This document shows, one piece after another, positions 20,505 through 58,185 of a stretch of DNA of 64,000 bases. Every line of letters starts with the position of its first letter. Position 1 is the first letter of the stretch. The position numbers were made by a program, and so were the translations under genes. Origin of the DNA: Ensifer adhaerens (GTDB lineage Bacteria > Pseudomonadota > Alphaproteobacteria > Rhizobiales > Rhizobiaceae); assembly GCF_001270265.1 (NCBI RefSeq), contig NZ_LGAP01000003.1, positions 62,001 through 126,000 on the forward strand. The letters are read 5' to 3'. Under the pieces are notes generated by a model. That model was not told the DNA's origin. It saw only the letters and a program-made list of their open reading frames with translations, and searched no databases.

Positions 20505-21317
20505 CTAATTCAGCCACTCGCACCGGTAAGCCCGGATTGGCTTTGCAAACCCCTTTAGCCGGTGGCGGCCACCATGAGTGAAGACATCAGCCTTGCCATA
20601 CTCTTGGTATATGTTTTCGGATATCAGGATTTGATCGCTATGGGCGGCAGCGCAAAGCCTTGCTGCCAGTTGCACCGTGGTGCCGAAGAGATCATTGCTG
20701 TCCTCGACAGGTTCGCCACAATCCAGTCCGATGCGGATATGGATTGGCTCGGCATTGCCTGCGTTGTAGCGATGGAACTCGCGTTGGATCTCAATTGCAC
20801 AGTCGACTGCAGATACCGTGGAGGAGAACGCCGCCATGATTCCATCTCCGGTGTGCTTGACCTCACGGCCGGATGATCGTCCCAGGCAACCGCGAACGAG
20901 GGCATCATGAGCTCTGATGAGTTCAGTGGCCATACGATCGCCAAGGCGCGACGTCATCTCGGTAGATCCAACCATGTCGGTGAAAAGGATCGCCCGGTGG
21001 CCGGCATCCATGCCTTTCGAGATCGATTCAGCCGCCTCAGGATCTTGTATTCGCCCGAGAAATGCTTCGACAGCTGATAGCGCCACCTCCACGACTTCGC
21101 CGGCAATGAACCCGTGGGCCTCACGATGAACGCATTGCGCGGTTTCAGCGTCCGGCGCATCTATCAGACAGAAGGTCGTTCCACGCCGGTGGTCAAACCA
21201 GTAGGTCAGGAACTTGACGCCGTACTGGTCCTGTATGCTGAGATCTTTAAGGTGTGCTTCGGCGACATCAGCAGCGGAAGCGCCTGCAAGATCATGCCGG
21301 TCCATGAAGATAGGCAT
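20505..21317 (-). CDS. class III adenylate/guanylate cyclase with N-terminal DUF4242 domain
   Basis: 270 residues. Residues 1-90 match the DUF4242 (nickel-binding SCO4226-like) fold, opening MPIFMDRHDL. Residues 105-270 are a class III cyclase catalytic domain, with FTDMVGST supplying the first metal aspartate, KHTGDGIMAAF the second, and DLFGTTVQLAARLC the region of the transition-state residues. In this last block glutamine stands where the canonical asparagine lies (VNxAAR). The architecture suggests a small-molecule or metal-sensing domain joined to cyclic-nucleotide synthesis. No membrane segment is seen. It lies at the end of the DUF1254 island. Confidence 0.85.
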   Translation of the reverse strand: MPIFMDRHDLAGASAADVAEAHLKDLSIQDQYGVKFLTYWFDHRRGTTFCLIDAPDAETAQCVHREAHGFIAGEVVEVALSAVEAFLGRIQDPEAAESISKGMDAGHRAILFTDMVGSTEMTSRLGDRMATELIRAHDALVRGCLGRSSGREVKHTGDGIMAAFSSTVSAVDCAIEIQREFHRYNAGNAEPIHIRIGLDCGEPVEDSNDLFGTTVQLAARLCAAAHSDQILISENIYQEYGKADVFTHGGRHRLKGFAKPIRAYRCEWLN

Positions 21318-21457
21318 TCGTTCGCTCCCGAAGGGGCCGTCGCCACAGCCAGCCTCAGTTTACGACAGTGCCGGGCCATCGTCTATCTCGGATAGAGCGC
21401 CGTCGCGCGAGTTGCCCACCGGCTCCAAAAAGCCGCGGTTCAAGCGGCCATTCGCCG

Positions 21458-22261
21458 TTACTTCGGGAACAAGAACGTTACTGCCGCTCTGAAACCCCAA
21501 CCTTCTGGACCGTTCTGAGGTGCTTGTGCCCAATACCGAGCACCCGCTGTCAAGCTCACGGGTTGCTCGCCGAATTTCACCAGCTTCGACACCTGAAAGT
21601 TAACGGGAACTGACCACGCGTCGTTACTCCAGTCGTACGAGCTTTCGGTATTCAGCGCAAAGGTCCAAGCATCGGGTGTCGTATAGGAAAGGAATGGCTG
21701 CAGAAACGTCGAACTGACATCCTGCCGGTCACTTTGCCCGGCGAAGGACCAGATATGGTTGGCCAGGATCCCGTATGTCCATGGCCCGTCCTGTTTCAAG
21801 GCGACGGCCGTGGGGCCAGCTCCCCATTTTCCACGCCCAAGCAGTTCATCGGTCGCGGTTGGGATAAGGAAGACCGGTCCAGCACCCCAGATGATCCCGC
21901 CTGGGCCAGGTTGCTTGGGGGAAACGAAAAGGCTCTGGGTGATATCGCCGAGACCGAACTGGTGCCCGGATTGCCCCGCTATGTCATTTTGCGAGATCAC
22001 GGGCAAGATTGTGCGCGAGATGATGTTCCAGTCTTCGTTTAGCGAGATTGGGATGACTGGTTGTATGTTGAGGACTTCGCGGTTGCCATTCTCCGGGCCG
22101 TAACCGCGATCATAGTTGAACTGAAAGGGCACGCTGATGAGCGAAGCAATCGGATTGCTGAGCTTCTTGGCGAGGTCAGCGCCAGACTCTTGAGCAACGG
22201 CTGACCCGACCGTGGCCATGAAAGATACAGTCAAACAGATAATTCTGTAGTGCGGCTTCAT
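21458..22261 (-). CDS. outer-membrane beta-barrel protein, neuromedin-U/MetA-like transporter family
   Basis: 267 residues with a signal peptide ending AVAQE near residue 24. The mature protein alternates short amphipathic strands rich in aromatic residues (SVPFQFNYDRGYG, FQVSKLVKFGEQPVSLTAGARYW) and ends in VTFLFPK, so it has a barrel-like C-terminus. It resembles proteins annotated as neuromedin U or phenol-degradation MetA-like barrels, which recur beside DUF1254 genes. Its substrate is unknown. It is the first of two adjacent barrel genes here. Confidence 0.75.
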   Translation of the reverse strand: MKPHYRIICLTVSFMATVGSAVAQESGADLAKKLSNPIASLISVPFQFNYDRGYGPENGNREVLNIQPVIPISLNEDWNIISRTILPVISQNDIAGQSGHQFGLGDITQSLFVSPKQPGPGGIIWGAGPVFLIPTATDELLGRGKWGAGPTAVALKQDGPWTYGILANHIWSFAGQSDRQDVSSTFLQPFLSYTTPDAWTFALNTESSYDWSNDAWSVPVNFQVSKLVKFGEQPVSLTAGARYWAQAPQNGPEGWGFRAAVTFLFPK

Positions 22262-22419
22262 ATTGTGATCTCGGCCCCTGGATTCGAAGGTTTTCTGTGC
22301 TGCTTTGCCTCAAGACGGCAGTGGTGCAACTCGCGTGACGGCACAGTCAGCGGACCACGATCGGTCCGCTCGTTGTCTACAAACGTCCGCTGAACGTCCG
22401 CGAACGGCACATGAGCATC

Positions 22420-23211
22420 CTAAAACCGTACGACCAGTCCGAGGATGGGCCCCTGCTGAACGGTGTCGAACACGAACCCATCATCGCTGTAGTCGACGCC
22501 CAAAGCGCGGTAGCCGGCAACTGCCGAAATCGTGTCGCTAAACCGGTAACCAATCGTCGCAGCGACGTCCCAGTCGAGATCGGCCCCCCCTGCCCCAATG
22601 AACCCCCACCCTGTCAGATAGATTTCGGGAGTGAGCGAATAGGTGCCCCGAAGGCCGGCTAAACCGTCCACCCACGTTGCATCATCGCGTCTGGAACGCC
22701 CATCCAGAATGCCGCCACTGAAGGAAAGCTCGCTTTCGACGGACCAGACGCGCAGACCACCGACGATTTCGAGCCGCGCGGTGCTGTCCTCGAAAACGGA
22801 ATACCCTGCACCGAGCAGCCCGGCGAATGTCTCGGATGAGAGCTCGACGTCGGTTGCAAGGATGCCTCTTGGCGTGCCAGCCTGCCCCGAAATCTTCGTA
22901 TACATGACATCGCCGAAGATGCTGTAGGGCCCATTGCGGGCTTCGCCCATCGCCATGGCTCCGAAATCGAGGTGATCGAAGATGTCGCTGAAACTGGAGT
23001 CTACATGCACCGCCGGTAACCCGAACTGCGCAACGTCCCCCGACAATCCAGCCGCCCAGAAATAGGGGGCAAAAGTAAAGGTCCAGCCGCCCTCGGCGGT
23101 CGTCTGCTGAACCTCCGGCGTCATGGGCGAATAGATGTCCGCAGCGCTCGCTCCGCTACTAGCCAGACCGATCCCCATCGCTGTCAAAGCGCGACGTAAG
23201 TATAATTTCAT
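22420..23211 (-). CDS. outer-membrane barrel protein, OmpW/autotransporter-barrel-like
   Basis: 263 residues starting at MKLYLRR; an upstream ATG four codons earlier is possible. A signal peptide ends near ASAAD (residue 24). The mature protein has repeated amphipathic strands (GWTFTFAPYFWAAGLSGDV, YSIFGDVMYTKISG, EIYLTGWGFIGAGGADLDWD) and the terminal phenylalanine motif GPILGLVVRF that marks substrates of the BAM complex. No more specific family is recognised. Together with the preceding barrel it would place two outer-membrane proteins beside the periplasmic DUF1254 proteins. Confidence 0.75.
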   Translation of the reverse strand: MKLYLRRALTAMGIGLASSGASAADIYSPMTPEVQQTTAEGGWTFTFAPYFWAAGLSGDVAQFGLPAVHVDSSFSDIFDHLDFGAMAMGEARNGPYSIFGDVMYTKISGQAGTPRGILATDVELSSETFAGLLGAGYSVFEDSTARLEIVGGLRVWSVESELSFSGGILDGRSRRDDATWVDGLAGLRGTYSLTPEIYLTGWGFIGAGGADLDWDVAATIGYRFSDTISAVAGYRALGVDYSDDGFVFDTVQQGPILGLVVRF

Positions 23212-23256
23212 GCTAGCCCCCAATAACTGTCGTGTCGTCTACCAAGGAGCAAAGCG

Positions 23257-23390: not shown

Positions 23391-24824
23391 TTATCCCGCC
23401 ACGATGATGCCGGGCGGCTGCCACGTCCCTTGCCCCGGCGGCAGGATGGATGGCGCTTCCGTCTTCGGCCAGTACAGGCGCATCACGAGATAGATCGTGT
23501 CATTGGGCGCAGGCAGCCAATTTGCCTCCTTGTCTGCGCCGGGGCTGTCTTTCTGGATGTAGAGGGTGAGCGAACCGTCGTCGTTCTTCTTCATGGCTGA
23601 CAACATCGGCGAGTTGATGAGGTAGCGGTTGATCGGGTTTTCGATCAGGAGTTGGGACTTACCATCATACATTGTTAGCGACCAGAACGAATTCACCGGT
23701 GGTAGGTGTCCCGCCGGGAAGGTCAGTGTGTAATTGTGCTTGCTGCCGTCCAGCGTCTGGCCGTCGCTGTCAACGCGCGTGAACGGATAGGTCGCTTCCG
23801 CCGGGTCATTACCATAAATTCCGGCTTGAGCGGCGATGGCACGCTTCAACCAGTCGCCATTGTAGTGGGCGCTGTCGCCTGGAAGACCGCTAACCCGCCA
23901 GCCATTGATCGCCTTGCCGACATCGGCGACGGCCTCGTCGACCTTCCGCTGGCCTTCCTTCATGCCGAGGCCAAGCTCCAGCTTGTGCTCCAGTGGTAGG
24001 TCTTTGAAGTTTAGGGTCTTGCCTGGCCCGACGCCGATACGTGCCAGCTTGGCGCGTATCTCCTTCTCATTACCCTGCGCCGGCGCGAATTGCAGCGCAA
24101 AATCGAGATAATCCAAGAAGTTGGTCTTCACCAGTTCCTTATCGATCTTGGGGAATTCGATGGCTGGCGCGGCCGGCGGCGGCGTCTGCTTCAGATAGGC
24201 GGAGAGCATCTGCACCTTGTAGCCCGCCTGCACCTTCTTGACGTTGTCGAGATCATCCGGGCCGAAAAGTTGGGTGCGATAGCCCGCGAGAGAAAACTGT
24301 GTGCTCGAACGAAATACCTGCTTGATGCCCGCCGGGGTGTCGCCCTCCCACTCGGGCCCGACCACCATATAGTCGCCGGGCTCGTTCCCTGTGGCACGGG
24401 TGCCGATATAGCCGTAATTGTAGGTATTGCCGTCGCAGAGCATGACCGAGTAGTAGCGCTTCGGATCGATCGCCGGCACCGAGAGCACCACCGGTTCCGC
24501 CCGCAAATCCATCCACACGAAGGAATAGGGTGTGTCGCTGTTGGGCGTGACGATTGCCGTATCTTTGTAGGTGAAGACGTTAGGTTCGTTCTTGATCTGA
24601 TTGAACGGCGCCTTGAACTGCCCCGAATTGCGATCTACCGCGTACTCGTACATGATGGCATAGTTCATCACGAGCGGCAGACCGTAGATGAAACCTTCCT
24701 CGGCGATGTCCTTTGCCTCGATGATGCCCGGGTAGCTTTGCGCCATCAGGAGGCTTGGCCTCGCAATCGCGGCGCTAGCGGCGATCACCGCGGTGGATCG
24801 AAGTAGATCTCTCTTCGTCAGCAT
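23391..24824 (-). CDS. DUF1254/DUF1214 exported protein, copy 1 of a tandem pair
   Basis: 477 residues from MLTKRDLLRST, a Tat-like signal with a lysine in the first twin position, cleaved near LLMAQ. The DUF1254 part includes GFIYGLPLVMNYAIMYEY and TPNSDTPYSFVWMDL. The DUF1214 part ends with FWSLTMYDGKSQLLIENPIN, DGSLTLYIQKDSPG, NWLPAP and MRLYWPK. No catalytic role is established to my knowledge. It is nearly superimposable on the next gene along its entire length, so the two arose by tandem duplication. A longer upstream frame is rejected because its sequence resembles the spacer, not a protein. Confidence 0.9.
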   Translation of the reverse strand: MLTKRDLLRSTAVIAASAAIARPSLLMAQSYPGIIEAKDIAEEGFIYGLPLVMNYAIMYEYAVDRNSGQFKAPFNQIKNEPNVFTYKDTAIVTPNSDTPYSFVWMDLRAEPVVLSVPAIDPKRYYSVMLCDGNTYNYGYIGTRATGNEPGDYMVVGPEWEGDTPAGIKQVFRSSTQFSLAGYRTQLFGPDDLDNVKKVQAGYKVQMLSAYLKQTPPPAAPAIEFPKIDKELVKTNFLDYLDFALQFAPAQGNEKEIRAKLARIGVGPGKTLNFKDLPLEHKLELGLGMKEGQRKVDEAVADVGKAINGWRVSGLPGDSAHYNGDWLKRAIAAQAGIYGNDPAEATYPFTRVDSDGQTLDGSKHNYTLTFPAGHLPPVNSFWSLTMYDGKSQLLIENPINRYLINSPMLSAMKKNDDGSLTLYIQKDSPGADKEANWLPAPNDTIYLVMRLYWPKTEAPSILPPGQGTWQPPGIIVAG

Positions 24825-25057: not shown

Positions 25058-26491
25058 CTATTCGGCCACAGTGATACCGGGCGGCTGCCATGTCCCTTCG
25101 CCCGGCGGCAGAATCGAAGGCGCTTCTGTTTTCGGCCAGTAGAGCCGCATGGCCGTATAAATCGGGCCGTTCGGCGCCGGCAGCCAGTTCGATTCCTTGT
25201 CCTCACCCGGCGACTTGTGCTGGACGTAAAGCGTTAGCGACCCGTCGGCGTTCTTTTTCAAAGTCGGCAGCATCGGCGAATTGATCAGATAGCGGTTGAT
25301 CGGATTCTCGATCAGCAACTGGGTCTTGCCATCGTACATGGTCACCGACCAGAAGGCGTTGACCGGCGGCAATTGATCGGCCGGGAAGGTCAGCGTGTAG
25401 TTGTGCTTGCTTCCGTCGAGCGGTCTGTCTTCCGAATCGAATTTTCCGAGCGGATAGGTCGCCTCCTCATCGTCGTTTCCAAAGATGCCCGCCTTGGCGC
25501 CCGCGGCGCGTTTCAGCCAGTCGCCATTAAAGAATGTGGCGTCGCCAAAGAGGGAGCTGAGCCGCCATCCGTTGACCGATACGCCGGCCTTGTCGACGGC
25601 CTCGTCGACCTTTCGTTCTCCTTGCTTCATTCCGATGAGAATCTCGGCTTTGTGCTCAAGCGGGAGATCCTTGAAGCTGAAGGTTTTTCCTGCGCCGACA
25701 CCGATGCGCGCAAGCTTCGCCCGGATATCCTTCTCGCTCTCCAGCGCCGGCGCAAACTGCAGGCAGAAATCGAGATACTCGAAGAAGTTCGTCTTCACGA
25801 GTTCCTTGTCAATCTTCGGAAAATTCAAGGCCGGCGAAGCGGGCGGCGCCGACTGCTTCAGGTAGGCGGAAAGCGGCTGCGCCTTGTAGCCAGCCTGCAC
25901 CTTCGTCACGTTGTCGATGTCGGCCTGATCAAAAAGCTGGGTGCGGTAGAGAGCGAGCGAGAACTGCGTGCTCGACTGGAACACCTTCTTCACTCCAGCG
26001 GGAGTTGCTCCCTTCCAGTCGGGTCCGACGACCATGTAGTCGCCGGCATCGTTCCCCGTGGCGCGCCTGCCGATATACCCGTAATTATATGTATTGCCGT
26101 CGATAAGCTGGACGGAATAGTAACGCGTTGCGTCCACAGCCGGAACCGAAAGCACCATCGGTTCCGACCTCAGGTCCATCCATACAAGTGAATACGGCGT
26201 GTCGCTGTTCGGCGAAATGACGGCGGTGTCTTTATAAGTGTAGACGTTGGATTCGTTCTTGATCTGATTGAACGGCGCCTTGAACTGCCCCGAATTCTGG
26301 TCAACGGCATATTCGTACATGATGGCGTAGTTCATCACGATCGGCAGACCGTAGATGAAGCCTTCCTCGGCGATGTCCTTGGCCTCGATGATGCCCGGGT
26401 AGCTTTGCGCCATCAGGAGGCTTGGCCTCGCAATCGCGGCGCCAGCGGCGATCACCGCCGTGGATCGAAGCAGATCTCTCTTGGTCAGCAT
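25058..26491 (-). CDS. DUF1254/DUF1214 exported protein, copy 2 of the tandem pair
   Basis: 477 residues, the same length as copy 1, opening MLTKRDLLRSTAVIAAGAAI. The family blocks are the same (FIYGLPIVMNYAIMY, TPYSLVWMDL, GDYMVVGPDW, FWSVTMYDGKTQLLIENP, NWLPAP). Differences from copy 1 are scattered and mostly conservative, except in the KVF-QSS to KTFSFKDL middle region, where changes are denser. Both signals are Tat-like. The preceding gene (26657) is also Tat-exported and on the same strand. Diverged duplicates under selection are more likely than a recent copy, since many synonymous differences are present. Confidence 0.9.
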   Translation of the reverse strand: MLTKRDLLRSTAVIAAGAAIARPSLLMAQSYPGIIEAKDIAEEGFIYGLPIVMNYAIMYEYAVDQNSGQFKAPFNQIKNESNVYTYKDTAVISPNSDTPYSLVWMDLRSEPMVLSVPAVDATRYYSVQLIDGNTYNYGYIGRRATGNDAGDYMVVGPDWKGATPAGVKKVFQSSTQFSLALYRTQLFDQADIDNVTKVQAGYKAQPLSAYLKQSAPPASPALNFPKIDKELVKTNFFEYLDFCLQFAPALESEKDIRAKLARIGVGAGKTFSFKDLPLEHKAEILIGMKQGERKVDEAVDKAGVSVNGWRLSSLFGDATFFNGDWLKRAAGAKAGIFGNDDEEATYPLGKFDSEDRPLDGSKHNYTLTFPADQLPPVNAFWSVTMYDGKTQLLIENPINRYLINSPMLPTLKKNADGSLTLYVQHKSPGEDKESNWLPAPNGPIYTAMRLYWPKTEAPSILPPGEGTWQPPGITVAE

Positions 26492-26656: not shown

Positions 26657-27181
26657 CTAGTACAGAAACGCCCGCCGGTAGCCGCGCCTGGCCACGCCCG
26701 CATAGGAGAGCGGCGTCAACGGCATGCCGATGATGTCGATGAACACAGAGACATCGGAGCCCTTCTCCGGCATTTCGCCACCAACCACCTTCACCGTGTA
26801 GGTCAAGTTATTGTCGTGCAGTTCCGGATTCTCCAGCACGACGACAACCTGTCGGAGCTTGCTCCCTTCGAGGATCGACAGGTCGGCATTCGGCGGATCG
26901 GAAAGGAAGCTGTCCTTGCCCTTGCTCCAGAACGGCACGAAAGCGGCCGTGTCCATGTTCCCGGCAATACGCTCGGGACGGTCAGAGAAAAACAACGTGG
27001 CGCCGCCAATACCTTCGAGCGTCAGTTTGCTCGACGCCTTGTCGAATTTCATGGCGCTTGCGGTTTGAACGAACAGGAAGTCGGCGACTTCGTCGGTTGC
27101 CTGCGCCAGTCGCGGCATGAACGGCACTGTCGTCGCCGCGACAGCTGTGGCTGCCAGCAATAGGTTCCGTCTGGTTGTCAT
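26657..27181 (-). CDS. Tat-exported hypothetical protein next to the DUF1254 pair
   Basis: 174 residues with a Tat signal (TTRRNLLLA, hydrophobic to about residue 28). The mature part begins DEVADFLFVQTASAMKFD and contains LEGIGGATLFFSDRPERIAG, VPFWSKGKDSF and VVVLENPELHDNN, predicted mostly as beta strands. I recognise it as a hypothetical type often seen near DUF1254 genes but cannot name a domain. It is divergent from the AraC gene, with about 140 bases of shared promoter space. It is probably first in an operon with the DUF1254 pair. Confidence 0.75.
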   Translation of the reverse strand: MTTRRNLLLAATAVAATTVPFMPRLAQATDEVADFLFVQTASAMKFDKASSKLTLEGIGGATLFFSDRPERIAGNMDTAAFVPFWSKGKDSFLSDPPNADLSILEGSKLRQVVVVLENPELHDNNLTYTVKVVGGEMPEKGSDVSVFIDIIGMPLTPLSYAGVARRGYRRAFLY

Positions 27182-27321
27182 AGTCGCTCCCCTCCTACAG
27201 GTCGCAAGATGTTCAAATCTCTACTTGTGCTACTCACATGTTTTACGGCACTAAACAGTATTCGCAATACGAAACCACTCATTTTGCGCCACGGTTGTCT
27301 TATTTCTGGAGTGTTGCATAC

Positions 27322-28332
27322 ATGGCTGAGATCCCGGTCATTTCCAACCGCATCCTCTCTGGCATGCCGGCCTTCATACGGCGTGAAATGGGGCAAAAGG
27401 CGCTGCTGCAGGCCAATCGTGCCATCGGCTTCGATCTCGAACTGACCGAGGGAGAGAACTGCTTCATCCCGCACGCAGCAGTAATCGGCTTCGTCGAAGC
27501 GGCCGCACGCGCCGCCGGCGAGAGCAATTTCGGAATCCTGATCACTCCGATGATGAATGCCGCCAACTATGGCAGCTTCGGTCACTACGTATTTGGCGCC
27601 GGCAGCCTCGGGCAGGCCCTCGAGCGCAGCATTGTTGGCCTTCGTTATCATAGTACGGTTGATAGGATGTCAGTCGCGGTGGTTGGCGACGAGGTACGGT
27701 ACAGCTATGTGTTCGCTTTGGCCGGCCACTCTGGATATGCCAGTATTGTCTGTGCCGCCGCGGGCGTCCTGCTCAGCCTCTTCAAGTCTTATCTGCCCCC
27801 TGACTGGCGACCGCTGCGCGTCGAGCTTGACACCGACAGACCGCGCCAGACGGGCCTTTTTGAAGATCTCTTCCAGTGTCCGGTTCTCTTCAACGCACCC
27901 GCGACAAGCATCGTTACGGATCGCCATCATCTTTCCGCTCCTGCGAGGCCCGCTTCATGGCCAATTGTCACCATCGAGGATGTGGCGCGAGACCGGCGAG
28001 GCGGCGCTCCACGGGATCTGCTCGAGGTCATCATGGAGCAGGTTCGGGTCCAAGTTCTCACCGGCAGCGTGTCGATCGATAGTGCCGCGCAATCGTTGGA
28101 CACCAGCGTCCGGACCCTGCAACGTGAGCTGAACAGAGCCGGCACGGATTTTCGTGGGTTGGCGGGCGCGGCAAGGGTTCAGCGGGCCATTGAACTGCTG
28201 CGGCACACGAACGGCTCGATCACGCGCGTGTCGGCGGAGTTAGGATATTCGTCTCCAGCCAATTTCGCCCGGGCATTCCGAAAGGCAACCGGCAACGGAC
28301 CGCGGGAATTCCGCTCGAATATCTCGCGTTGA
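27322..28332 (+). CDS. AraC-family regulator with arabinose-binding-type N-terminal domain
   Basis: 336 residues from MAEIPVIS; the frame extends 28 codons further upstream without a good ribosome site. Residues 20-210 match the PF12625-type effector domain of OruR/ArgR-like regulators. The C-terminal 100 residues form two helix-turn-helix motifs (IDSAAQSLDTSVRTLQRELN and ITRVSAELGYSSPANFARAF). It is transcribed away from the 26657 gene and is flanked by DUF1254 and DUF2721 genes, so control of the island is plausible. Confidence 0.9.
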   Translation: MAEIPVISNRILSGMPAFIRREMGQKALLQANRAIGFDLELTEGENCFIPHAAVIGFVEAAARAAGESNFGILITPMMNAANYGSFGHYVFGAGSLGQALERSIVGLRYHSTVDRMSVAVVGDEVRYSYVFALAGHSGYASIVCAAAGVLLSLFKSYLPPDWRPLRVELDTDRPRQTGLFEDLFQCPVLFNAPATSIVTDRHHLSAPARPASWPIVTIEDVARDRRGGAPRDLLEVIMEQVRVQVLTGSVSIDSAAQSLDTSVRTLQRELNRAGTDFRGLAGAARVQRAIELLRHTNGSITRVSAELGYSSPANFARAFRKATGNGPREFRSNISR

Positions 28333-28390: not shown

Positions 28391-28843
28391 TCAGTCTTGC
28401 TCCATGGGGACTCGGTCCATTCGTATTTGCCGCAACAAATTCCGTCCGGCGATCAGCAATTCGAACAGGAATGCGACAAGCGATCCGATGAGCGAGACTA
28501 TGGCACCACCAAAAAACCAGAAGAGATTTTCTTGCCGCAGTCCAATGGCAAGAGCGCCAGCAAGTAGATTTAAGATTGCGCCGCCCGTGCAAATGCCGGC
28601 CATAACCCCAAGCACGACCGCAACCTCCAGTGCAAGTGCCCTTCGCCGCAGATACGCGATCTGCATGCGAAACAACTTGCCCTGCTTACCCCTATCCGCG
28701 ACCTCGTTCAGCCGGTCCGATACTCTCCCGAGCCGAATGGTGTAGATACTGACAAAACCTGCGGTACCAGCCAACAAAAAGACCGGCGCAAGGGATGTTT
28801 GTATGACAGAGGCAAGGTCGTTGACGATCGGCGGTGTGTCCAT
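28391..28843 (-). CDS. DUF2721 membrane protein
   Basis: 150 residues with three hydrophobic segments (about 12-35, 72-95 and 108-128). The DUF2721 pattern LAPVFLLAGTAGFVSIYTIRLGRVSDRLNEV is at the start, followed by a basic stretch (YLRRRALALEVAV). The function of the family is unknown; it is an inner-membrane protein. Broken copies at 23257 and 24925 prove that this gene was part of the unit duplicated with DUF1254. A RIME-like repeat separates it from the MscS gene. Confidence 0.88.
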   Translation of the reverse strand: MDTPPIVNDLASVIQTSLAPVFLLAGTAGFVSIYTIRLGRVSDRLNEVADRGKQGKLFRMQIAYLRRRALALEVAVVLGVMAGICTGGAILNLLAGALAIGLRQENLFWFFGGAIVSLIGSLVAFLFELLIAGRNLLRQIRMDRVPMEQD

Positions 28844-28852: not shown

Positions 28853-28956
28853 TAGAGCATTTCGAGGAAAAGTGCGAAGTGGTTTTCCGTCGGTAAATGC
28901 GCAAAAACAAAGAGATAGAGCGTTTCCTGCGCTCCCTTTAAACCCGAAACGCTCTA
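28853..28956. repeat. RIME-like intergenic repeat of Rhizobium type
   Basis: The stretch begins TAGAGCATTTCGAGGAAAAG, passes GTGGTTTTCCGTCGG and AGATAGAGCGTTTCC, and ends AAACGCTCTA. This matches the layout of the Rhizobium intergenic mosaic element RIME1 of about 105 bases. Internal inverted copies (AGAGCGTTTC and GAAACGCTCT) form a stem. Its last bases provide the stop codon of the MscS gene. Confidence 0.75.
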
Positions 28957-30987: not shown

Positions 30988-31149
30988 GTAACCCCGTCGC
31001 AGCAAACGAGCGCTGGCCGCTCTCAAACAAGGCGGCAAATAATCCCAGCTGATGCTGATCCGACACAACCAGTCGGATCAGCATTGAAGATGAAAACCAG
31101 CATGGAGGCGAGCGCTAATATCGCGATCAGTTGATCACGGATATTCTGA

Positions 31150-37232: not shown

Positions 37233-37234
37233 GA

Positions 37235-43586: not shown

Positions 43587-43589
43587 GTC

Positions 43590-46735: not shown

Positions 46736-46782
46736 AAGCCACTCTCCCTTGGTGCTGACGATCGGCTTGGGACACACGCAAC

Positions 46783-48766: not shown

Positions 48767-48781
48767 GGAACATCAGCATTC
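48767..48781 (+). promoter_or_regulatory. LexA SOS box, GAAC-N7-GAAC
   Basis: GAAC ATTACAG GAAC is an exact match to the alphaproteobacterial LexA operator (direct repeat with seven-base spacing). It lies 53 bases before the imuA start. It predicts that the whole imuA-imuB-dnaE2 unit is induced by DNA damage. Confidence 0.88.
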
Positions 48782-48833
48782 AAGCGACATGATGTCGTCA
48801 GTTTCAACGCGATCTGAACAGGATTCGTGACCG

Positions 48834-49586
48834 ATGTCCGCTGTCCGAGCGCACGTCATAGCCGACCTTCGGGAACGCATCAGCTCCATCGAGAGGCATG
48901 CGGTGAAGAAGGCCGGGTGCCTGGAATTCGGCGTGCCGGAGATCGACGCGGTTCTCCCGGGAGGCGGACTGGCGCACGGCGCTCTCCACGAGTTCGCGGG
49001 AGGCGGGGTGGGCACGGTCGATGGCGCCGCCGCCGCACTCTTCGCGGCGGGGATCGCGACCCGAACGGCAGGGCCGATCGTCTGGTGCCTCACCCGGCCC
49101 GACCTCTTCATGCCTGCGCTGGCACAGGTCGGCCTCCATGCAGACCGCGTGATCTTCGTTGAATCTGACAAAGAAGAAGACGTGCTTGCGAATATGGAAG
49201 AGGCGCTCGCATATGGGAGTCTCGGCGCCGTCGTCGGCGAGATCGTCCGACTTCCGATGGCGGCATCACGCCATCTGCAGCTCGCGGCCGAGAAGACTGG
49301 AACGATGGCCTTGGCGGTCAGGCGGTGGCGGCGACAAACGGAGGCGAACGACTTCGGCCAGCCGACGGCGAGCACGACACGATGGCGGGTGAGTGTTAGG
49401 CCGTCCGAAGTGCTTCCGGTGCCGGGAGTGGGGCGGCCCAGATGGTTTCTGGAACTGATGCGCGTGAAGGCGGGTGAATGTGCAGAGTTTCTCGTAGGAG
49501 CGTGTGATGACCAGGGTCGTATCGATCTTCCTTCCCGATCTGCCGACGGATCGCATTCGTCGCGCCGATCCATCCATCCCGGCTGA
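48834..49586 (+). CDS. imuA: ImuA, SOS mutagenesis accessory protein
   Basis: 250 residues, RecA/SulA-like fold. FGVPEIDAVLPGGGLAHGALHEFAG is the usual N-terminal block of ImuA, and LPVPGVGRPRWFLELMRVKAGE the C-terminal one. It lacks a clear Walker A P-loop (PGGGLAHG stands in its place). ImuA works with ImuB and DnaE2 in error-prone translesion synthesis. The SOS box lies directly upstream. Its end overlaps imuB by about 80 bases. Confidence 0.9.
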   Translation: MSAVRAHVIADLRERISSIERHAVKKAGCLEFGVPEIDAVLPGGGLAHGALHEFAGGGVGTVDGAAAALFAAGIATRTAGPIVWCLTRPDLFMPALAQVGLHADRVIFVESDKEEDVLANMEEALAYGSLGAVVGEIVRLPMAASRHLQLAAEKTGTMALAVRRWRRQTEANDFGQPTASTTRWRVSVRPSEVLPVPGVGRPRWFLELMRVKAGECAEFLVGACDDQGRIDLPSRSADGSHSSRRSIHPG

Positions 49587-51018
49587 CCAGGCGATTGCTG
49601 TGATCGCGAGGTCGGGATCAAAGCGCTGGGTCTCCGCTGCCGATGCCGCTGCTCGAAAGGCTGGCGTTCACTGCGGCATGCAGGCTGCCAAGGCGCAGGC
49701 GCTATTCCGCGGCCTCACGATGATCGATGCCAATCCTATGGCAGACGCCGTCGCACTCGAGCGGATTACCTTCTGGGCGCTGACCCAGTATTCGCCGATC
49801 GTTGCTGTCGATGGCACAGACGGGATCGTCATGGACACCGAAGGTGCCGACCACCTGCAGGGTGGCGAGGAGCCGATGCTGACGCGGATCGCCAACCAGT
49901 TCCGCGCCAAGGGGCTGACGACGAGGGTTGCGATAGCCGACACCTGGGGAGCGGCGAATGCCTGCGCGCGGGCGATCTCAAGAGACACCGTCATAGTCCC
50001 GCGCGGCGAGACCGTCAGGGCAGTCGAAAAACTCCCACTCTCACTTCTGCGCCTTCCGGATAAGATCGTCGGCGATCTTCGAATGCTCGGCTTCAAGACC
50101 ATCAGTGAACTTGCCAACACCCCACGCGCGCCGCTGACGCCTCGTTTCGGACCGGAGGTTGGTCGTCGCCTCGACCAGATGTTCGGCAGAACGCCTGAGC
50201 CGATCGATCCCATCCGCACGGCGGAGTTGGTCGAAGTCAGCCGTGCATTCGCCGAACCCATCGGCGCCGCGGAGACGATCAACAAGTATGTCGGCCGACT
50301 GGTCGTCCAGCTTGTCGACGAGCTGCAGAGGAGAGGTCTCGGTGTCCGGCGGACCGACCTCATCGTCGAGAAGGTCGACGGAACCAGGCAAGCCATTCGT
50401 GCCGGCACCGCCAAGCCTGCTCGCGATGTCGCCTGGCTGACGAAGCTCTTCAAGGACAGAACCGAGAAGATCGAACCCGGCTTCGGGATCGAGAAGATGA
50501 CCCTGGTCGCCGTCATGGCGGAACCGCTGGAAGAAGCCCAGAAGTCGTCGTCGCTGGTCGAAGACGAGGTCATTGATGTGACACCCCTGATCGACATCTT
50601 CGGGAACCGGGGAGCGCGGGTGTATCGCGTCGCCCCCGTTGCTTCGGACGTTCCCGAGCGTTCCGTCCGGAGGATCGGTGCCGCATCCGATCCGGTCGAA
50701 GCCTCGTGGGTCAATCATTGGCGCCGTCCCGTACGTTTGCTGGCGCGGCCGGAACAGGTCGATGTGATGGCGCTGATGCCCGATCATCCGCCCGTGTGGA
50801 TCATATGGCGGGGCAAGCGACGGAAGGTGAAGAACGCCGACGGTCCAGAGCGCATCTTCGGCGAATGGTGGGAACGCAATTCCGAGATGGCCGCGGTCCG
50901 CGACTATTTCGTGATCGAGGACGAGGGCGGTGAACGGCTCTGGATCTTCCGGTCCGGCGACGGCGTGGATACGGAAACAGGCAGCCATAAATGGTTCGTG
51001 CACGGGGTCTTCGCATGA
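49507..51018 (+). CDS. imuB: ImuB, Y-family polymerase-like clamp-binding protein
   Basis: 503 residues from the ATG at 49507; a GTG lies one codon upstream. It begins [17 protein letters not shown], which lacks the DxDxFF catalytic pattern of active Y-family polymerases, as in other ImuB. The little-finger and helix-hairpin-helix regions ([22 protein letters not shown]) follow. It serves as a hub linking DnaE2 and the beta clamp. The gene starts within imuA and its end overlaps dnaE2. Confidence 0.93.
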
Positions 51019-54000
51019 GATACGCGGAGCTGCAGGTCACGACACATTTTTCGTTCCTTCGCGGTGCGAGTTCGGCGCAGGAGCTGTTCGAGACCGCCAA
51101 GGAGCTTGGCATAGATGCCATCGGTGTCGTTGACAGGAATTCGCTAGCCGGGATCGTGCGTGCTCTCGAAGCATCACGATCGACCGGTATCCGTCTGGTC
51201 GTCGGCTGTCGTCTGGATCTGCAGGACGGTATGTCGATACTGGTCTATCCCACCGACCGCGCCGCGTACTCCCGGCTGACGCGCCTGATCACGCTTGGAA
51301 AGTCACGTGGAGGGAAGAACAACTGCATTCTGCATCTGGACGACGTGGTCGCATATGCCGATGGCATGATCGGCATCCTGGTACCGGATCTTCCCGACGA
51401 GACCTGTGCCGTCCAGCTTCGGAAGTTGGCCGAGATATTTGGTGACCGCGCGTACCTGTCTCTCTGCCTTCGACGACGTCCGAACGATCAGCTCCGGCTC
51501 CATGAGCTGTCGAATCTCGCAATCCGCTTCAAGGTGAAGACCGTCGTGACCAATGACGTGCTTTTCCACGAGGCGGGGAGGCGGCAGCTTCAGGACATCG
51601 TCACCTGCATCCGGCACAACACGACCATCGATGCCGTTGGTTTCGAGCGCGAGCGCCATGCCGATCGGTATCTCAAGCCTCCCGAGGAGATGGAGCGTCT
51701 GTTCCCGCGCTATCCGGAAGCGCTCAGGCGCACGATGGAGATCGTCGATCGCTGCAAGTTCAGCCTCGAAGAGCTGACCTACCAGTATCCGGAAGAAGCC
51801 ATCGTCCCCGGCAAGACCGCTCAGGAATCCCTTGAGCACTATCTCTGGGAATGCGTGCCCAACCGCTATCCAGAAGGCCTCCCACCCGAGGTGCTGAAGA
51901 CCGTCCGCCACGAGCTCGATCTGATCCAGAAGATGAAGTACGCGCCGTACTTCCTGACGGTCTTCAGCATCGTCAAATATGCGAGGTCGCAAGGCATCCT
52001 GTGTCAGGGCCGCGGATCGGCGGCGAATTCGGCTGTCTGCTACATTCTCGGCATCACCAGTATTGACCCGTCGACGAATGATCTCCTGTTCGAGCGCTTC
52101 GTTTCGCAGGAACGGGACGAGCCGCCGGACGTCGATGTCGACTTCGAGCACGAACGAAGGGAGGAGGTCATCCAATGGATCTACGAGACCTACACCCGCG
52201 AGAAGGCCGCTCTCTGTGCGACGGTCACCCGATATCGGGCCAAGGGCGCTATCCGTGATGTCGGCAAGGCACTCGGATTGCCCGAGGACGTTATCAAGGC
52301 CCTTTCGTCGGGCATGTGGTCATGGTCGGAGGAGGTGCCTGACCGCAATATACGCGAACTCGGACTGAACCCCGAGGACCGCCGTCTGGCGCTGACGTTG
52401 ATGTTGGCCCAGCAATTGATGGGTGCGCCGCGTCACCTCGGCCAGCATCCTGGCGGCTTCGTCCTGACCCACGACAGGTTGGACGATCTCGTGCCCATCG
52501 AACCTGCCAGCATGAAGGATCGGCAGATCATCGAGTGGGACAAGGACGACGTCGAAGCGCTGAAGTTCATGAAGGTCGACGTGTTGGCCTTGGGCATGCT
52601 CACCTGCATGTCGAAGGCTTTCGATCTGATCCGAGAGCACAAGGATGACGACCTCGACCTCGCCAAGATAGAGCAGGAGGACAGTGCCACCTATGCGATG
52701 ATCAGGAAAGCCGACACCCTCGGCACGTTCCAGATCGAGAGCCGCGCGCAGATGGCGATGCTGCCCCGCCTGAAACCACGGACGTTCTACGACCTCGTCG
52801 TTCAGGTGGCCATCGTTCGTCCAGGCCCGATTCAGGGTGACATGGTCCACCCCTACCTCAGGAGACGGGAAGGGAAGGAGCCTGTCGAATACCCGACACC
52901 CGAACTTGAAGCCGTGCTCGGCAAGACCCTCGGCGTACCGCTTTTTCAAGAGTCAGCGATGAGGGTCGCCATGGTGTGCGCCGGCTTCACGGGCGGGGAG
53001 GCCGATCAGCTCCGGAAGTCGATGGCGACTTTCAAGTTCACGGGCGGAGTCAGCAGGTTCAAGGACAAGCTCGTATCCGGGATGGTGAAGAACGGGTATT
53101 CTCCGGAGTTTGCTGAGAAGACGTTCTCGCAGCTCGAAGGATTCGGTTCCTACGGCTTCCCGGAATCCCATGCAGCATCGTTTGCTCTGATCGCCTACGC
53201 CTCGAACTTCGTGAAGTGCCATTATCCGGACGCGTTCTGTGCAGCGCTCCTGAACTCGCAGCCCATGGGATTCTACGCTCCGGCACAGATCATCGGCGAT
53301 GCCCGAAATCACGGCGTCGAGGTTCGACCCGTCTGCATCAATCAATCCCGCTGGGACTGCACGCTTGAACCTATCGGCAACACCGGCCGCCATGCTGTCC
53401 GTCTCGGGATGCGAATGGTGAAGGGGCTGGCCGCCGTCGATGCCGCTCGCATCGTCGCCGCGCGGATGCAGGTCGGCTTCGATAGCGTGGACGACATGTG
53501 GCGGCGTTCCGGTGTCCCGCCCGAAGCGCTCGTGCAGCTCGCGGAAGCGGATGCTTTCCGCCTGTCGTTGAAGCTCGAGCGACGTGACGCCCTCTGGGCC
53601 ATCAAGGCGCTGCGTGACGAGCCGCTACCTCTGTTTGCGGCGGCTGCCGAACGAGAGATGAAGACGATCGCCGAACAGCAGGAACCTGAGGTAGTGCTCC
53701 GGCAAATGACTGAAGGCCACAACGTGGTCGCCGACTACAGCCATACCGGGCTGACACTCCGGGAGCATCCGATCGCGTTCCTGCGCAAGGATCTGCAGAA
53801 GCGGAACATCGTGACCTGCGCGGACGCGATGAACGCGCGGGACGGCCGCTGGCTGATGGCGTCGGGACTTGTCCTGGTGAGGCAGATGCCAGGGTCGGCA
53901 AAGGGGGTCATGTTCGTGACCATCGAGGACGAGACCGGGCCTGCAAACATCGTCGTCTGGCCGAGCCTGTTCGAGAAACGGCGGCGGGTTGTGCTGGGAT

Positions 54001-54278
54001 CGTCAATGATGGCGATCAACGGCAGGATCCAGCGGGAAGGCGATGTCGTCCATCTCGTCGCCCAGCAGGTCTTCGACCTGTCCGGCGATCTCTCTGGACT
54101 GGCCGACCGCGACATCGACTTCAAGCTGCCGACGGGCAGGGGTGACGAGTTCGCGCATGGGTCGCCGGGAAGCCCGGATTCTCGGGATCGGCCGAAGCCA
54201 GTGCCACACCCCAGAGACATCTTCGTTAGGGATCTGCATATCGACGCCCTGAAGGTGAAGGCGAGGAATTTCCACTGA
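51015..54278 (+). CDS. dnaE2: DnaE2, error-prone DNA polymerase III alpha subunit
   Basis: 1,087 residues from an ATGA overlap with imuB. The PHP domain is at the start ([18 protein letters not shown]). The polymerase core contains [19 protein letters not shown] and the catalytic aspartates in [15 protein letters not shown], then [17 protein letters not shown] and [13 protein letters not shown]. An OB-fold domain lies near 970-1040. The length and absence of the tau-binding tail fit DnaE2 rather than DnaE1. It carries out SOS mutagenic synthesis with ImuA and ImuB. It ends the cassette. Confidence 0.96.
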
Positions 54279-54973: not shown

Positions 54974-56485
54974 ATGTCGATGAAGCCTCGCGGAACCAAC
55001 CAACGCCAACACCGGTTCGGGGAAATTGACCGTCGGTCTTTTTTCCCCCTGCTGGGAGCCGGGGTCCTCTTGATGTTGCCCGGAAAGGCTTGGGCGCAAC
55101 AAGTCCCCATACCCACAAACGCCGATCAGGTTCGGGGCACACCCGGCGGCACGGCCATGACCACGGCCTACGTGCAATCGTTGGGACGCATTGCGTATCG
55201 GTGGGGCTGGCCACTGGTCAATTCGGTCAACCGCTCCATAGCCTTTTCCAAGGCTCCCCAACCAGGCTTGATAGGCGGAGTGGTTCCAATCGCATTCAAC
55301 GGGAACGCAATGCTGACCGGGTATATCAGCCCGGACCAGACGATCATCGCCTGCCCGAACCAGGATGTCGCGTATGGTGCCGGCTGGATGACACTGGACA
55401 AAGAGCCCATCGTCTTCCAGGTACCGGATTTTGGCGATCGTTTCTGGGTCTACGCGCACTATGACGCGCGCACCGACGAGTTTTCCGAGATCGGCAAGCA
55501 ATACGGCACCAAGCCCGGCTTCTACCTGATGGTGGGTCCAGACTGGAAGGGCGAAACGCCAGCCGGCATCACGGCGGTGGTGCGCTCCTCCACGTCGCTT
55601 GCCTTTGTCATTCCGCGCATCTTCATCGATGACAGCGCCGAGGATCAAAAAGCCGTCCAGCCGTTGCTCAGCCAGGTCGTCTACTACCCGTTGTCGGAGT
55701 TCGACGGCAAGATGAAGATCAGGGACTGGAGCAAGCTCCCGCATTTCCCGGCACCGAAATCCACCGGCAAAGGTGAGACCAAGTGGGTAAACCCGGAGAC
55801 CTTCTTCGACGAGTTACCTGAGGTGATGAAACAAGTGCCGCCGATGCCGGGCGAGGAAGCCCTCTACAACTGGATCGGTAGCGTGCTGGACGCCGCCGCC
55901 AAGGATCCTGCGATCAAGAAGACGCTTGTGGAAACTGCTGTCGCCGCCGAGGGTGAACTGATCTCACCGTTCTTTAAGTGGGCCAATAACGGCCGCCCCG
56001 CTAGCAATGGTTGGAATTCGCCGGTGAACAACGCGGAGTGGGGGAACGACTACGTCAATCGCACGGGCCCTTCCAAGTCGAACATGTACGACAACCGGCC
56101 TGAGGAAACCAAGTACATCTACACGGACAACGACAAGCAGGGTGCACAACTCAACGGACAGAACAATTACACGATCACATTTGCCAAGGGTCAGACGCCA
56201 CCGGTTAAGGGGTTCTGGTCGTTGACCTTGTATAACGATGTCCACTTCTTCAACCCAAATCCACTAAGGCGCTATTCATTGGGCACGAAGAACAAGACCA
56301 TCAAATACAACGCGGACGGCTCGCTGACGCTTTACGCCAGCGCCAAGTCGCCGGGCGCGGACAAGGAAAGCAACTGGCTGCCCGCGCCCGAAGGTACGTT
56401 CTCGCTCTACATCCGCGCCTATTGGGCCGACCAGGCCATCCTCGACGGCACCTGGCAGCCCCCGACCGTCACGGTGGCGAACTGA
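54974..56485 (+). CDS. DUF1254/DUF1214 Tat-exported protein, IDRRSFF subfamily
   Basis: 503 residues from MSMKPRGTN with a Tat signal (EIDRRSFFPLLGAG, cleaved near KAWAQ). The DUF1254 part contains SLGRIAYRWGWPLVNSVNR and NQDVAYGAGWMTLDKEPIVF. The DUF1214 part contains NNYTITFAKGQTPPVKGFWSL, DGSLTLYASAKSPG, NWLPAP and IRAYWADQ. It is the most distant of the seven members and the only one here with a classical twin arginine. It begins a plus-strand pair with the next gene, 23 bases apart. Confidence 0.9.
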   Translation: MSMKPRGTNQRQHRFGEIDRRSFFPLLGAGVLLMLPGKAWAQQVPIPTNADQVRGTPGGTAMTTAYVQSLGRIAYRWGWPLVNSVNRSIAFSKAPQPGLIGGVVPIAFNGNAMLTGYISPDQTIIACPNQDVAYGAGWMTLDKEPIVFQVPDFGDRFWVYAHYDARTDEFSEIGKQYGTKPGFYLMVGPDWKGETPAGITAVVRSSTSLAFVIPRIFIDDSAEDQKAVQPLLSQVVYYPLSEFDGKMKIRDWSKLPHFPAPKSTGKGETKWVNPETFFDELPEVMKQVPPMPGEEALYNWIGSVLDAAAKDPAIKKTLVETAVAAEGELISPFFKWANNGRPASNGWNSPVNNAEWGNDYVNRTGPSKSNMYDNRPEETKYIYTDNDKQGAQLNGQNNYTITFAKGQTPPVKGFWSLTLYNDVHFFNPNPLRRYSLGTKNKTIKYNADGSLTLYASAKSPGADKESNWLPAPEGTFSLYIRAYWADQAILDGTWQPPTVTVAN

Positions 56486-56508: not shown

Positions 56509-58062
56509 ATGACAGTGACAACCATTCGCCCACTCAACCTTCTCGTCGCCGCGCTGGTTGGCGGTTTGGCAATGAACGGCTTCGCTACGCAGGCTTTCGC
56601 TCAGGAGACCTCCTTCGATAAGTTGGCCAACCTCCCGTTCGCGGAAGGCCGGCCCACAAAGGAGACAGCGCAGACCTTGCGCGACGAACTGCTCTTCCAA
56701 CGGGCGACGCAGACCTATCTCTGGGCGCTGCCGTTGATCAACACCCTCGGGATGCAGGTCGGGTCGGAAAAGACATTCGGCACCGGCTACAACGTCCTGC
56801 CGATCTGGAAGAAGCGGCTCGATGCCAAGACCCTGGTGACTACCCCCAACTCCGACGTCCTCTACGCCATGAGTTACGTTGACCTGGGCAAGGATGGTCC
56901 GCTGGTGATGGAAGCGCCGTCTGAGTTGCAAGGCATCCTGCTGGATTACTGGCAGCGCCCCATTCCGGTGGATGGCGGCAAGTTCTTTGGTGACGTCGGT
57001 CTGTTTGGACCGGATGGCGGCAAGGGGGGCAAGTTCCTCCTGTTGCCACCCGGCTACAAGGGAGCGGTGCCGGACGGTTACTACGTTTACCGGTCAGGCA
57101 CCAACAGCGTCTTTATCTTTCTTCGCGGGTTTTACGAGGACCCGAAGAATCTGACACCCGCCGTCGCGCACCTGGAGAAGACAAAGATCTATCCGCTTAA
57201 CGGCGAGGCTGGCGCCAAGCCGATGGAATTCCCCGATGGCTCCGGCGTCCCGGTCAACATGCTGCCGATCAGCGACGGCAGCGCCTTCGATCAACTCAAG
57301 CTGCTGGTGGACCGGGAGGGTAACAATCTCGCCGGTCCCGATTGGCTCGGCATGCTGGCGGCCATCGGCATCGTCAAGGGCCAGCCGTTCGATCCTGATG
57401 CGCACACACGCGAGATCCTCGATCGGGCCGCGAAGACCGGCTACAAAATGAGCCGTGTCATCGGCTTTGCCGACAGGGCAAGTGGTCTCTCGTTGCTCGT
57501 CTATCCAGACCGCCGCTGGCTCAATCCCTTCGCCGACGGGACTCCCGCGAATCCGGGTGGGTCGATGAATCCGGACTGGGAGAATGTCGCCGGAGCGTAT
57601 CCATATCTGGCCCTCGATGCCCGAATCTGGATGTTCACCGACTACTACTCGATCAGCCCGGGGATGATGTCCCAAACCCCGGGCAAGGGCGCGAAGTACA
57701 TGATAGGCTTCACCGATAGCGAAGGCGTGCCCTTGTCGGGCGGTAGCAACTACCGCCTGAACCTGCCCGCCAACATTCCAGCCGCCAACTTCTGGTCGGT
57801 GACGCTCTACGAGGCTGAGAATGCTTCGGGTCTCGCAAATGGGCAGCCTTTCCCATCGTTGGGTTCAAAGGACAGGCCGGCGCAGAACGCTGATGGCAGC
57901 ACGGAGCTTTACCTCGCCCCCAAAGCACCCGAGGGCAAGGCCGGCAATTGGCTCGTGACCGTGCCGGGCAAGGGGTACTTCGCCATCCTCAGGCTCTACG
58001 GCCCGACCGAAGCGGCCATCGACAAGAGCTGGGTCCCAGGGGACATCGAGAAGGTGGAGTGA
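56509..58062 (+). CDS. DUF1254/DUF1214 exported protein, LLFQRATQ subfamily
   Basis: 517 residues from MTVTTIRP with a Sec signal ending QAFAQ near residue 31; an upstream frame within the previous gene is rejected. It contains LLFQRATQTYLWALPLINTLG, LVTTPNSDVLYAMSYVDL, FLLLPPGYKGAVPDGYYVY and, at the end, FWSVTLYEAENASGL, NWLVTVPGKGYFAILRLYGPTE and IDKSWVPGDIEKVE. The protein at 45296 is its closest relative here. Downstream lie scraps of further family members. Confidence 0.9.
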   Translation: MTVTTIRPLNLLVAALVGGLAMNGFATQAFAQETSFDKLANLPFAEGRPTKETAQTLRDELLFQRATQTYLWALPLINTLGMQVGSEKTFGTGYNVLPIWKKRLDAKTLVTTPNSDVLYAMSYVDLGKDGPLVMEAPSELQGILLDYWQRPIPVDGGKFFGDVGLFGPDGGKGGKFLLLPPGYKGAVPDGYYVYRSGTNSVFIFLRGFYEDPKNLTPAVAHLEKTKIYPLNGEAGAKPMEFPDGSGVPVNMLPISDGSAFDQLKLLVDREGNNLAGPDWLGMLAAIGIVKGQPFDPDAHTREILDRAAKTGYKMSRVIGFADRASGLSLLVYPDRRWLNPFADGTPANPGGSMNPDWENVAGAYPYLALDARIWMFTDYYSISPGMMSQTPGKGAKYMIGFTDSEGVPLSGGSNYRLNLPANIPAANFWSVTLYEAENASGLANGQPFPSLGSKDRPAQNADGSTELYLAPKAPEGKAGNWLVTVPGKGYFAILRLYGPTEAAIDKSWVPGDIEKVE

Positions 58063-58074
58063 CCCCCGTGCGCT

Positions 58075-58102
58075 CAGCGGCTTAAGGCCCGAAAAGCCGC
58101 TG
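58075..58102 (+). terminator. nine-base-pair hairpin after the DUF1254 pair
   Basis: CAGCGGCTT (58075-58083) and AAGCCGCTG (58094-58102) are a perfect inverted repeat around a ten-base loop, 12 bases after the stop of the preceding gene. No T run follows. It may act as a weak terminator. It overlaps the start of the remnant sequence below. Confidence 0.45.
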
Positions 58103-58185
58103 TTCGACAAGACGTGGAAGCTCGGCGACATCGAGGAAGTGAAGTGATCTCCGCCTACGCCCGACCGAAGCTGCTGAAGGGAAAT
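58086..58185 (+). pseudogene. C-terminal scraps of further DUF1254/DUF1214 genes
   Basis: From 58088 the plus strand reads PEKPLFDKTWKLGDIEEVK and a stop at 58147, which is the typical end of this family (compare AIDKSWVPGDIEKVE in the intact neighbour). Immediately after, from about 58151, a second stretch resembles LRLYGPTEAA of the same family, with one codon lost. Thus at least two further copies once stood here. Confidence 0.65.

Follow-up and report, generated by a model that had tools for sequence, protein, structure and literature searches.

Genes of the locus

The subject here is a stretch of 64,000 nucleotides from Ensifer adhaerens (assembly GCF_001270265.1, contig NZ_LGAP01000003.1, positions 62,001 to 126,000; 'the window'), and particularly the seven genes in it that combine DUF1254 and DUF1214 domains, here designated D1 through D7, along with the genes that accompany them. 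DUF1254 and DUF1214 are widespread families for which structures have been solved and no function assigned. A sequence-only reading of the window had described seven intact genes of this type as making up, with various partners, one large island. The genes are as described, with both PF06863 (DUF1254) and PF06742 (DUF1214) scoring above curated Pfam cut-offs in 7/7. The single island is not, as two cassettes interrupt it, one spanning 35.9-44.4 kb and the other 48.8-54.3 kb. That is, there is a core (20.5-35.1 kb) plus two DUF1254 pairs, D4-D5 and D6-D7, which unrelated genes split off. Absent from that reading were these interrupting cassettes as well as a 174-aa protein, p174, and a peptide that p174 shares with a 108-aa protein, s108.

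The core consists of two minus-strand runs, each opposite a plus-strand AraC-family gene. AraC 1 (27238..28332) is divergent from p174 (26657..27181), D2 (25058..26491), and D1 (23391..24824), which are followed by barrel B (22420..23223, start likely near 23211), barrel A (21458..22261), and a class III nucleotide cyclase (20505..21317) with an N-terminal SCO4226-like domain (PF14026, which we take to be the former DUF4242). AraC 2 (34043..35050, start probably near 34118) is divergent from DUF2092 (33118..34017; PF09865), s108 (32795..33121), and D3 (31150..32727), which are followed by an MscS-family mechanosensitive channel (28954..31068) and a DUF2721 membrane protein (28391..28843; PF11026, E 6.8e-18). 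Pfam bears out the previously named partners, i.e., the cyclase, both AraC genes (each PF12625 plus HTH_18), MscS, DUF2092, and DUF2721. As for two outer-membrane barrels, also named previously, the 267-aa genes are present, and that they encode barrels is predicted from their sequence and from relatives annotated 'transporter' (so for barrel A); relatives of barrel B adjoin DUF1254 or DUF2092. Neither matches a Pfam family at E 0.01, including Phenol_MetA_deg (PF13557), with a PF13557 match found in a neighbour barrel of another locus, L043. AraC 2 has a paralogue, 72% identical, that is divergent from another DUF1254 gene of this genome. Tried as QhpR, an amine-responsive AraC regulator, AraC 2 scored 145.2 bits, below the curated cut-off of 250.

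Of the 15 DUF1254 matches in this genome (7.46 Mb, 99 contigs), seven are in the window and eight are spread over six other contigs. Fifteen is the highest count among 61 sampled genomes of the order (runner-up, 9); 35 of the 61 have matches, many of them short forms. Two further genes of this genome are of note: a DUF1254 gene disrupted across two frames (contig C25, locus L012, 14687-16134) and another short one (L014, 9464-10240). Plasmid counterparts of the core, from 21.4 to 35.1 kb, exist in Sinorhizobium sp. M14 (pSinB), Ensifer canadensis, and E. adhaerens, with 86-87% identity over about half of a 24-kb query. The E. canadensis core is without D3, its cyclase homologue is found 3.2 kb past the AraC gene, on the opposite side of the core, and both E. 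canadensis and M14 have one gene in place of D1 plus D2.

DUF1254/DUF1214 paralogues

The open reading frames (ORFs) of the seven genes begin, in window coordinates, at 23391, 25058, 31150, 45296, 46783, 54905, and 56422, with true starts probably lying inside several of them, e.g., at 54974 and 56509. D1 (ATG start assumed inside ORF 23391-24932) and D2 are VPA0106-like and 79% identical. They are not sisters in our tree, such that the duplication could be recent or old despite that identity. D3 is VPA0735-like. Outside the core, D4 (45296..46870) and D5 (46783..48636, start likely near 48399) are on the minus strand, and D6 (54974..56485) and D7 (56509..58062; see also loci L089 and L092) are on the plus strand, with the D6-D7 order, behind an upstream barrel A, seen as well in locus L089. 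A clear RR (Tat) motif can be seen by eye in the signal of D6 (ORF 54905), with KR in its place in the 23391/25058 pair.

Two proteins of Vibrio parahaemolyticus share family and fold with these paralogues: VPA0735 (PDB 2p3y, 3vb9) with D3 (3vb9, E 9.2e-75) and VPA0106 (PDB 3u07) with D2 (E 4.5e-41). Both are structural-genomics structures, with titles that give no function. D3, the sole paralogue modelled (AlphaFold, pLDDT 93.8), has the VPA0735 fold (2p3y, E 2e-50, TM 0.84/0.92), and VPA0735, VPA0106, and 6ans are the only matches to its model at E <=0.001.

DUF2092, s108, p174, and the shared peptide

DUF2092, predicted to be periplasmic, has been proposed to have a LolA-like fold, per the accessible part of PMC4520260. 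LolA models do detect the window's protein (E 6e-6 and 6e-5), scoring 25.9 bits against a cut-off of 100 and 22.5 against 112, i.e., below what is curated for LolA lipoprotein carriers. Unlike LolA, furthermore, it is paired with a small secreted protein lacking an obvious lipobox. That protein is s108, predicted to be secreted and bearing GRPVTPGSVAGVARR directly after its predicted signal peptide. The s108 start and the DUF2092 stop overlap by 4 bases, and exactly this overlap is found in 17 of 22 distinct DUF2092-s108 pairs, several of which are close relatives. DUF2092 occurs in 13 of 101 genomes of the order, as 19 genes including the window's, and s108 stands beside 11 of the 18 others (10 by motif, that of L037 by profile). 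Searched over its own whole genome, an s108 profile finds exactly three s108 genes, each adjoining DUF2092, along with the tail of p174 (E 6.9e-8), and nothing beyond s108 and p174 at E 0.001. Of 240 genomes in the class, 8 have matches to this profile, some of them only weak and in frames of non-coding look. No relatives of DUF2092 were found in viral contigs. NCBIfam holds no family for s108, with one Leptolyngbya relative annotated as DUF6515 and another matching DUF6515 at E 0.047 (Pfam).

The company kept by DUF2092-s108 varies. A plasmid of the cyanobacterium Leptolyngbya carries AraC, a barrel B-like gene, DUF2092, two s108 genes, and a sulfatase, and a sulfatase accompanies the pair in L252 as well. 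Neorhizobium has DUF2092-s108-DUF3604, and S. meliloti has a cluster of adenylate cyclase and DUF2092-s108-DUF1254-DUF1254. In Sinorhizobium meliloti 1021 it is pSymA that bears DUF2092-s108 and DUF1254 genes; the second DUF1254 gene there (L263, 11170-12668) runs across two frames and is annotated as a full gene in strain ml28.

In the window a spurious antisense ORF masks the gene for p174, a predicted exported protein whose C-terminus bears PLTPLSYAGVARR; in E. canadensis and M14 this gene has been annotated. The peptide GRP-x-TP-x-S-x-AGVARR is thus common to s108, near the mature N-terminus, and p174, at or near the C-terminus. Across 18 aligned s108 proteins there are 14 invariant columns, namely the peptide plus the A-x-A that precedes the presumed cleavage site. 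A 13-residue pattern was found in 31 of 199 scanned loci versus 0/19 controls (a few of the loci overlap). In the AlphaFold model, p174 has a confident beta-rich domain, with residues 152-174 disordered. Foldseek with that model gave no match at E 0.001, Pfam has no family for p174, PDB sequence searches with barrel A, p174, and DUF2092 gave chance-level matches only, and a literature text search for the core letters of the peptide found no paper.

Away from islands, relatives of p174 mostly have Gly/His-rich or Cys-containing tails at the peptide's position. We considered 27 distinct p174 loci, that is, 30 minus L241 (no p174 by blastp) and repeats of L237 and L245. The peptide is found in 10 of these, and DUF1254 lies within 1.5 kb in 5/10 with the peptide versus 0/17 in its absence (p 0.003). 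At least one listed partner is present at 10/10 peptide-bearing loci (8/10 minus two weak partners) versus 1/17 of the others, using a partner list compiled after the data were seen. DUF2092 is not required for the p174 peptide, since six of eight genomes taken as sampled (G031, G035, G041, G074, G081, and G098) have that peptide and no DUF2092 match. The idea that the tail marks islands perfectly was rejected, as peptide-less p174 genes occur near DUF1254, beyond 1.5 kb, in L146, L265, and L109. Between p174 and DUF1254 at loci L098 and L265, in M14 pSinB and Rhizobium sp. WSM1274, there are OmpA-family and cysteine-rich-repeat genes, absent from the window core.

Recurrence in other genomes

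Within the order, 19 other DUF1254 regions, drawn from 12 genomes, were set against 19 controls of the same genome group. The regions are not fully independent, the 19 with DUF1254 include two whose matched frames are short forms, and L128 and L120, at under 20 kb each, were kept in the counts. Not among the 19 are three loci, L042, L043, and L089, all of which have partners and two of which have DUF2092. An AraC-family gene is present in 10/19 DUF1254 regions versus 0/19 controls (one-sided p 2e-4). Counting full-length AraC alignments it is 8/19 versus 0/19 (p 1.5e-3), as the remaining two match over the DNA-binding part only. Either barrel B or a Phenol_MetA_deg barrel is found in 5/19 versus 0/19 (p 0.023, the L105 match being just 50 residues long), a second DUF1254 gene in 5/19, a sulfatase in 1/19 versus 0/19, DUF2721 in 1/19, and DUF2092 in 0/19. 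The controls gave three single matches to other queries, i.e., aminotransferase, MscS, and cyclase. Near-complete sets are found elsewhere, at loci L096, L144, L146, and L207.

A wider scan with the D3/D5 subfamily returned at least 563 confirmed stretches, the best 80 of which gave the 79 named loci on which all 79-locus counts are based. At 33 of the 79 DUF1254 genes form arrays of two to five (five in L173), all on the same strand in 31 of the 33, and in 14 of the 33 a VPA0106-type member stands besides a VPA0735-type one, as grouped by best match. In the tree, array members from Marinobacter, Acidobacteria, and Thermoleophilia fall in subfamilies of D1, D3, D5, or another paralogue of the E. 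adhaerens genome, with the deepest forks being weak and two rows sitting on long branches. That different subfamilies recur together across phyla would fit different roles, and in this form the earlier suggestion of paralogues differing in specificity may stand.

Clustering de novo 1,169 genes of the 79 loci, with clusters labelled mostly via our own query set and glycoside hydrolases no specific target, gave sulfatases at 24 loci, barrel A at 13, AraC at 11, cyclase at 9, and barrel B, DUF2092, and the Phenol_MetA_deg barrel at 7 each. Neighbours within 1.5 kb of DUF1254 (n=306) were then compared with those at least 4 kb away (n=434), with p values uncorrected. Barrel A accounts for 11/306 versus 1/434 (p 0.0004), with 11 of its 14 copies at named loci lying within 1.5 kb of DUF1254; AraC for 14/306 versus 3/434 (p 0.0006); the Phenol_MetA_deg barrel for 5/306 versus 0/434 (p 0.012); and sulfatases, a weak support, for 15/306 versus 9/434 (p 0.028). 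Twelve sulfatase genes at 11 loci are within 500 bp of DUF1254, mostly long (~800 aa) and on the same strand. Going by record titles, with some of the phylum names presumed by us, these loci belong to Acidobacteriota, Pseudomonadota, Desulfobacterota, Verrucomicrobiota, and Planctomycetota. Sulfatase-like proteins of Thiobacillus (L207, 2109-3890) and Leptolyngbya (L262, 10073-11731) have N-termini that are near-identical by eye, a hint of one sulfatase subfamily travelling with DUF2092-s108.

The repeated association of DUF1254 with its window partners, the lack of which was to count against the island, has good support in the case of AraC, barrels, and arrays of paralogues, and is weaker for DUF2092 (7/79 and 0/19, as given above), DUF2721, MscS, and the cyclase. 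With members recurring in unrelated bacteria, and with one peptide in two small proteins, this very likely is a real and undescribed cell-surface system. The gene set is not described in those portions of the literature on DUF1254, DUF1214, and DUF2092 that were available, including tables for Caulobacter, Bradyrhizobium, and Listeria; a COG5361 gene, anL05, appears in a table within the available part of PMC13125312.

Interpretation and alternatives

Loci for the use of sulfated compounds and polysaccharides combine an outer-membrane channel or barrel with exported hydrolases and a regulator. The present cassettes resemble such loci in having a barrel, exported proteins, and a regulator, and differ in their core proteins, which are DUF1254/DUF1214 and DUF2092; in the window core we recognised neither SusC/SusD nor a TonB-dependent receptor. 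The island may be viewed as a pile-up of cell-envelope cassettes, inducible and all of a single recurring type. Under AraC control, these would capture amphiphilic, often sulfated compounds and process them, with the peptide as a shared docking tag. To this reading we would give a probability of roughly 0.4. Each run would open with a small, peptide-bearing exported protein (s108 behind DUF2092, or instead p174), followed by an exported 'client', clients being DUF1254/DUF1214 jelly-roll proteins in the window and sulfatases or DUF3604 proteins in other genomes. Barrels would let these amphiphilic compounds, in many cases esters (of sulfate or otherwise), across the outer membrane; DUF2092 may serve as a LolA-like hydrophobic carrier, moving ligand or client; and DUF1254/DUF1214 paralogues of different subfamilies might bind the ligand or cleave it, working together in a mixed assembly, with a product inducing the operons via AraC. 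We infer that each protein is exported and that the runs are operons, as well as the ligand class, the catalysis, the docking, and the induction. The periplasmic small-molecule system first imagined for the window is partly supported, as it would fit the sulfatase, lipase, and LolA-like DUF2092 neighbours.

In this scheme the peptide would let the small proteins dock on a partner that they share within the assembly. Generalizing, GRP-x-TP-x-S-x-AGVARR(-x-x-RR) might be a periplasmic address, or docking signal, that can be transferred between proteins. It would be carried by s108 and by the unrelated p174, in the latter marking those members that serve DUF1254, sulfatase, or DUF3604 cassettes, and LolA-like DUF2092 or the client would be a candidate receptor. 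We are more inclined to doubt than to believe this, but, if true, the peptide would represent a novel type of motif for envelope targeting and, indeed, a new kind of periplasmic docking signal. The arrays have an importance of their own: DUF1254/DUF1214 genes, of deeply different subfamilies, stand on one strand with AraC, barrels, and, in at least five phyla, neighbouring sulfatases, thereby suggesting concrete candidate substrates and mutants, in part in Sinorhizobium meliloti 1021.

Several observations weigh against capture and processing by such cassettes. DUF2092-s108 often stands without DUF1254 or a barrel: among the 18 other DUF2092 regions, three have DUF1254 and five have DUF1254 or a barrel. 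In one genome (G023), DUF2092-s108 with the peptide is found with only a 202-aa DUF1214 frame and no full-length DUF1254, and there are the peptide-less p174 genes near DUF1254 noted above. Within the order, 18 of 150 genomes have relatives of barrel A, and 3 of 20 barrel A regions have DUF1254, the majority lacking it. No enrichment near DUF1254 was seen for the cyclase (p 0.79), barrel B (0.19), DUF2092 (0.48), SYLF-like genes (0.55), LysR (0.69), or SDR (0.96). The D3 model matched no known enzyme fold at E 0.001. Lastly, no sulfatase stands beside the core on the window's part of the contig; the genome has 12 sulfatases, two of them within 5 kb of non-window DUF1254 genes (contigs C25 and C27).

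The main rival is that these genes serve in envelope maintenance or stress, that is, that DUF1254, DUF2092, OmpA, MscS, DUF2721, and a cationic peptide tune or repair outer membrane or peptidoglycan, with no outside compound being processed. MscS and DUF2721 in the core would be at home there, as would the OmpA-family, cysteine-rich, and DUF2147 genes of the M14 cluster and the OmpA and cysteine-rich genes of that of WSM1274; the LolA-like DUF2092 suggests lipid or lipoprotein traffic, and a bacteriocin-response table in the available part of PMC12791056 includes lmo1241, a DUF1254 gene of Listeria. Barrels, sulfatases (24/79 loci), lipase and DUF3604 neighbours, and AraC point instead to the inducible processing of compounds, and the patchy presence within the order, often as short forms, is unlike housekeeping. 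On balance we hold envelope maintenance to be a serious contender, if on the unlikely side. Should DUF1254/DUF1214 proteins instead be glycan-active enzymes or lectins, built as jelly rolls, then the cassettes would be small polysaccharide-use loci for sulfated glycans. In the accessible part of Wu et al. (PMC4634964), a Malassezia PF06742 protein is modelled as a jelly-roll glycosyl hydrolase. It shares with the window's proteins the C-terminal DUF1214 domain and the jelly-roll prediction, and is a single fungal gene, of predicted function, with no cassette. Sulfatases beside DUF1254 point the same way, as do well-conserved W, Y, R, D, and N residues and a Foldseek similarity to beta-galactosidases, but the latter is weak, falling just below the cut (E 1.1e-3, TM 0.18). 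Neither Pfam nor the structure search with the D3 model, examined for glycoside hydrolases, matched a known enzyme family or fold, and LolA-like DUF2092 and lipase favour hydrophobic ligands. A glycan-directed role strikes us as unlikely.

That mobile genes accumulated here by chance, in a variable part of a large replicon, the outcome that was to speak against an island, is very improbable. Two unrelated cassettes do interrupt, there is a transposase gene at 59229-60383, the core is on plasmids in the named relatives, and the genome's other DUF1254 genes are on several other contigs. Partners recur, however, in other genera and phyla, as judged with controls, and the DUF2092-s108 and D6-D7 pairs are conserved. 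By the control and near-versus-far comparisons chance was thus rejected for the core, and not for the placement beside it of D4-D5 and D6-D7.

Neighbouring genes

The first interrupting cassette (35916..44372) is outside the module and by Pfam includes an aminotransferase, an APH-type phosphotransferase, a GntR/FCD regulator, an SDR, and a solute-binding protein with a polyamine-type ABC transporter. It is viewed as separate because an 8-kb block of it recurs on another E. canadensis replicon, at 96.1% identity, and in S. meliloti, at ~91%. The second (48773..54278), also outside the module, is an imuA-imuB-dnaE2 cassette by Pfam, and is so annotated on Rhizobium plasmids. A link to sulfur starvation by way of the cyanobacterial plasmid pANL, presumably a bearer of sulfur-regulated genes, was dropped, as no useful literature was found, and is not used here.

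Upstream of the core, at 18040-20043, is an arsenic-type cluster with an ACR3-like SBF transporter and an LMWP phosphatase/arsenate reductase-like gene (Pfam) plus, by eye, an ArsR-like regulator. An arsenic resistance protein is also close to the core in M14 pSinB. Beside the D6-D7 pair, the transposase-like gene at 59229-60383 has HTH domains, a related region being annotated ISNCY, and following it, at 61025-62761, is a protein with ten RTX calcium-binding repeat stretches.

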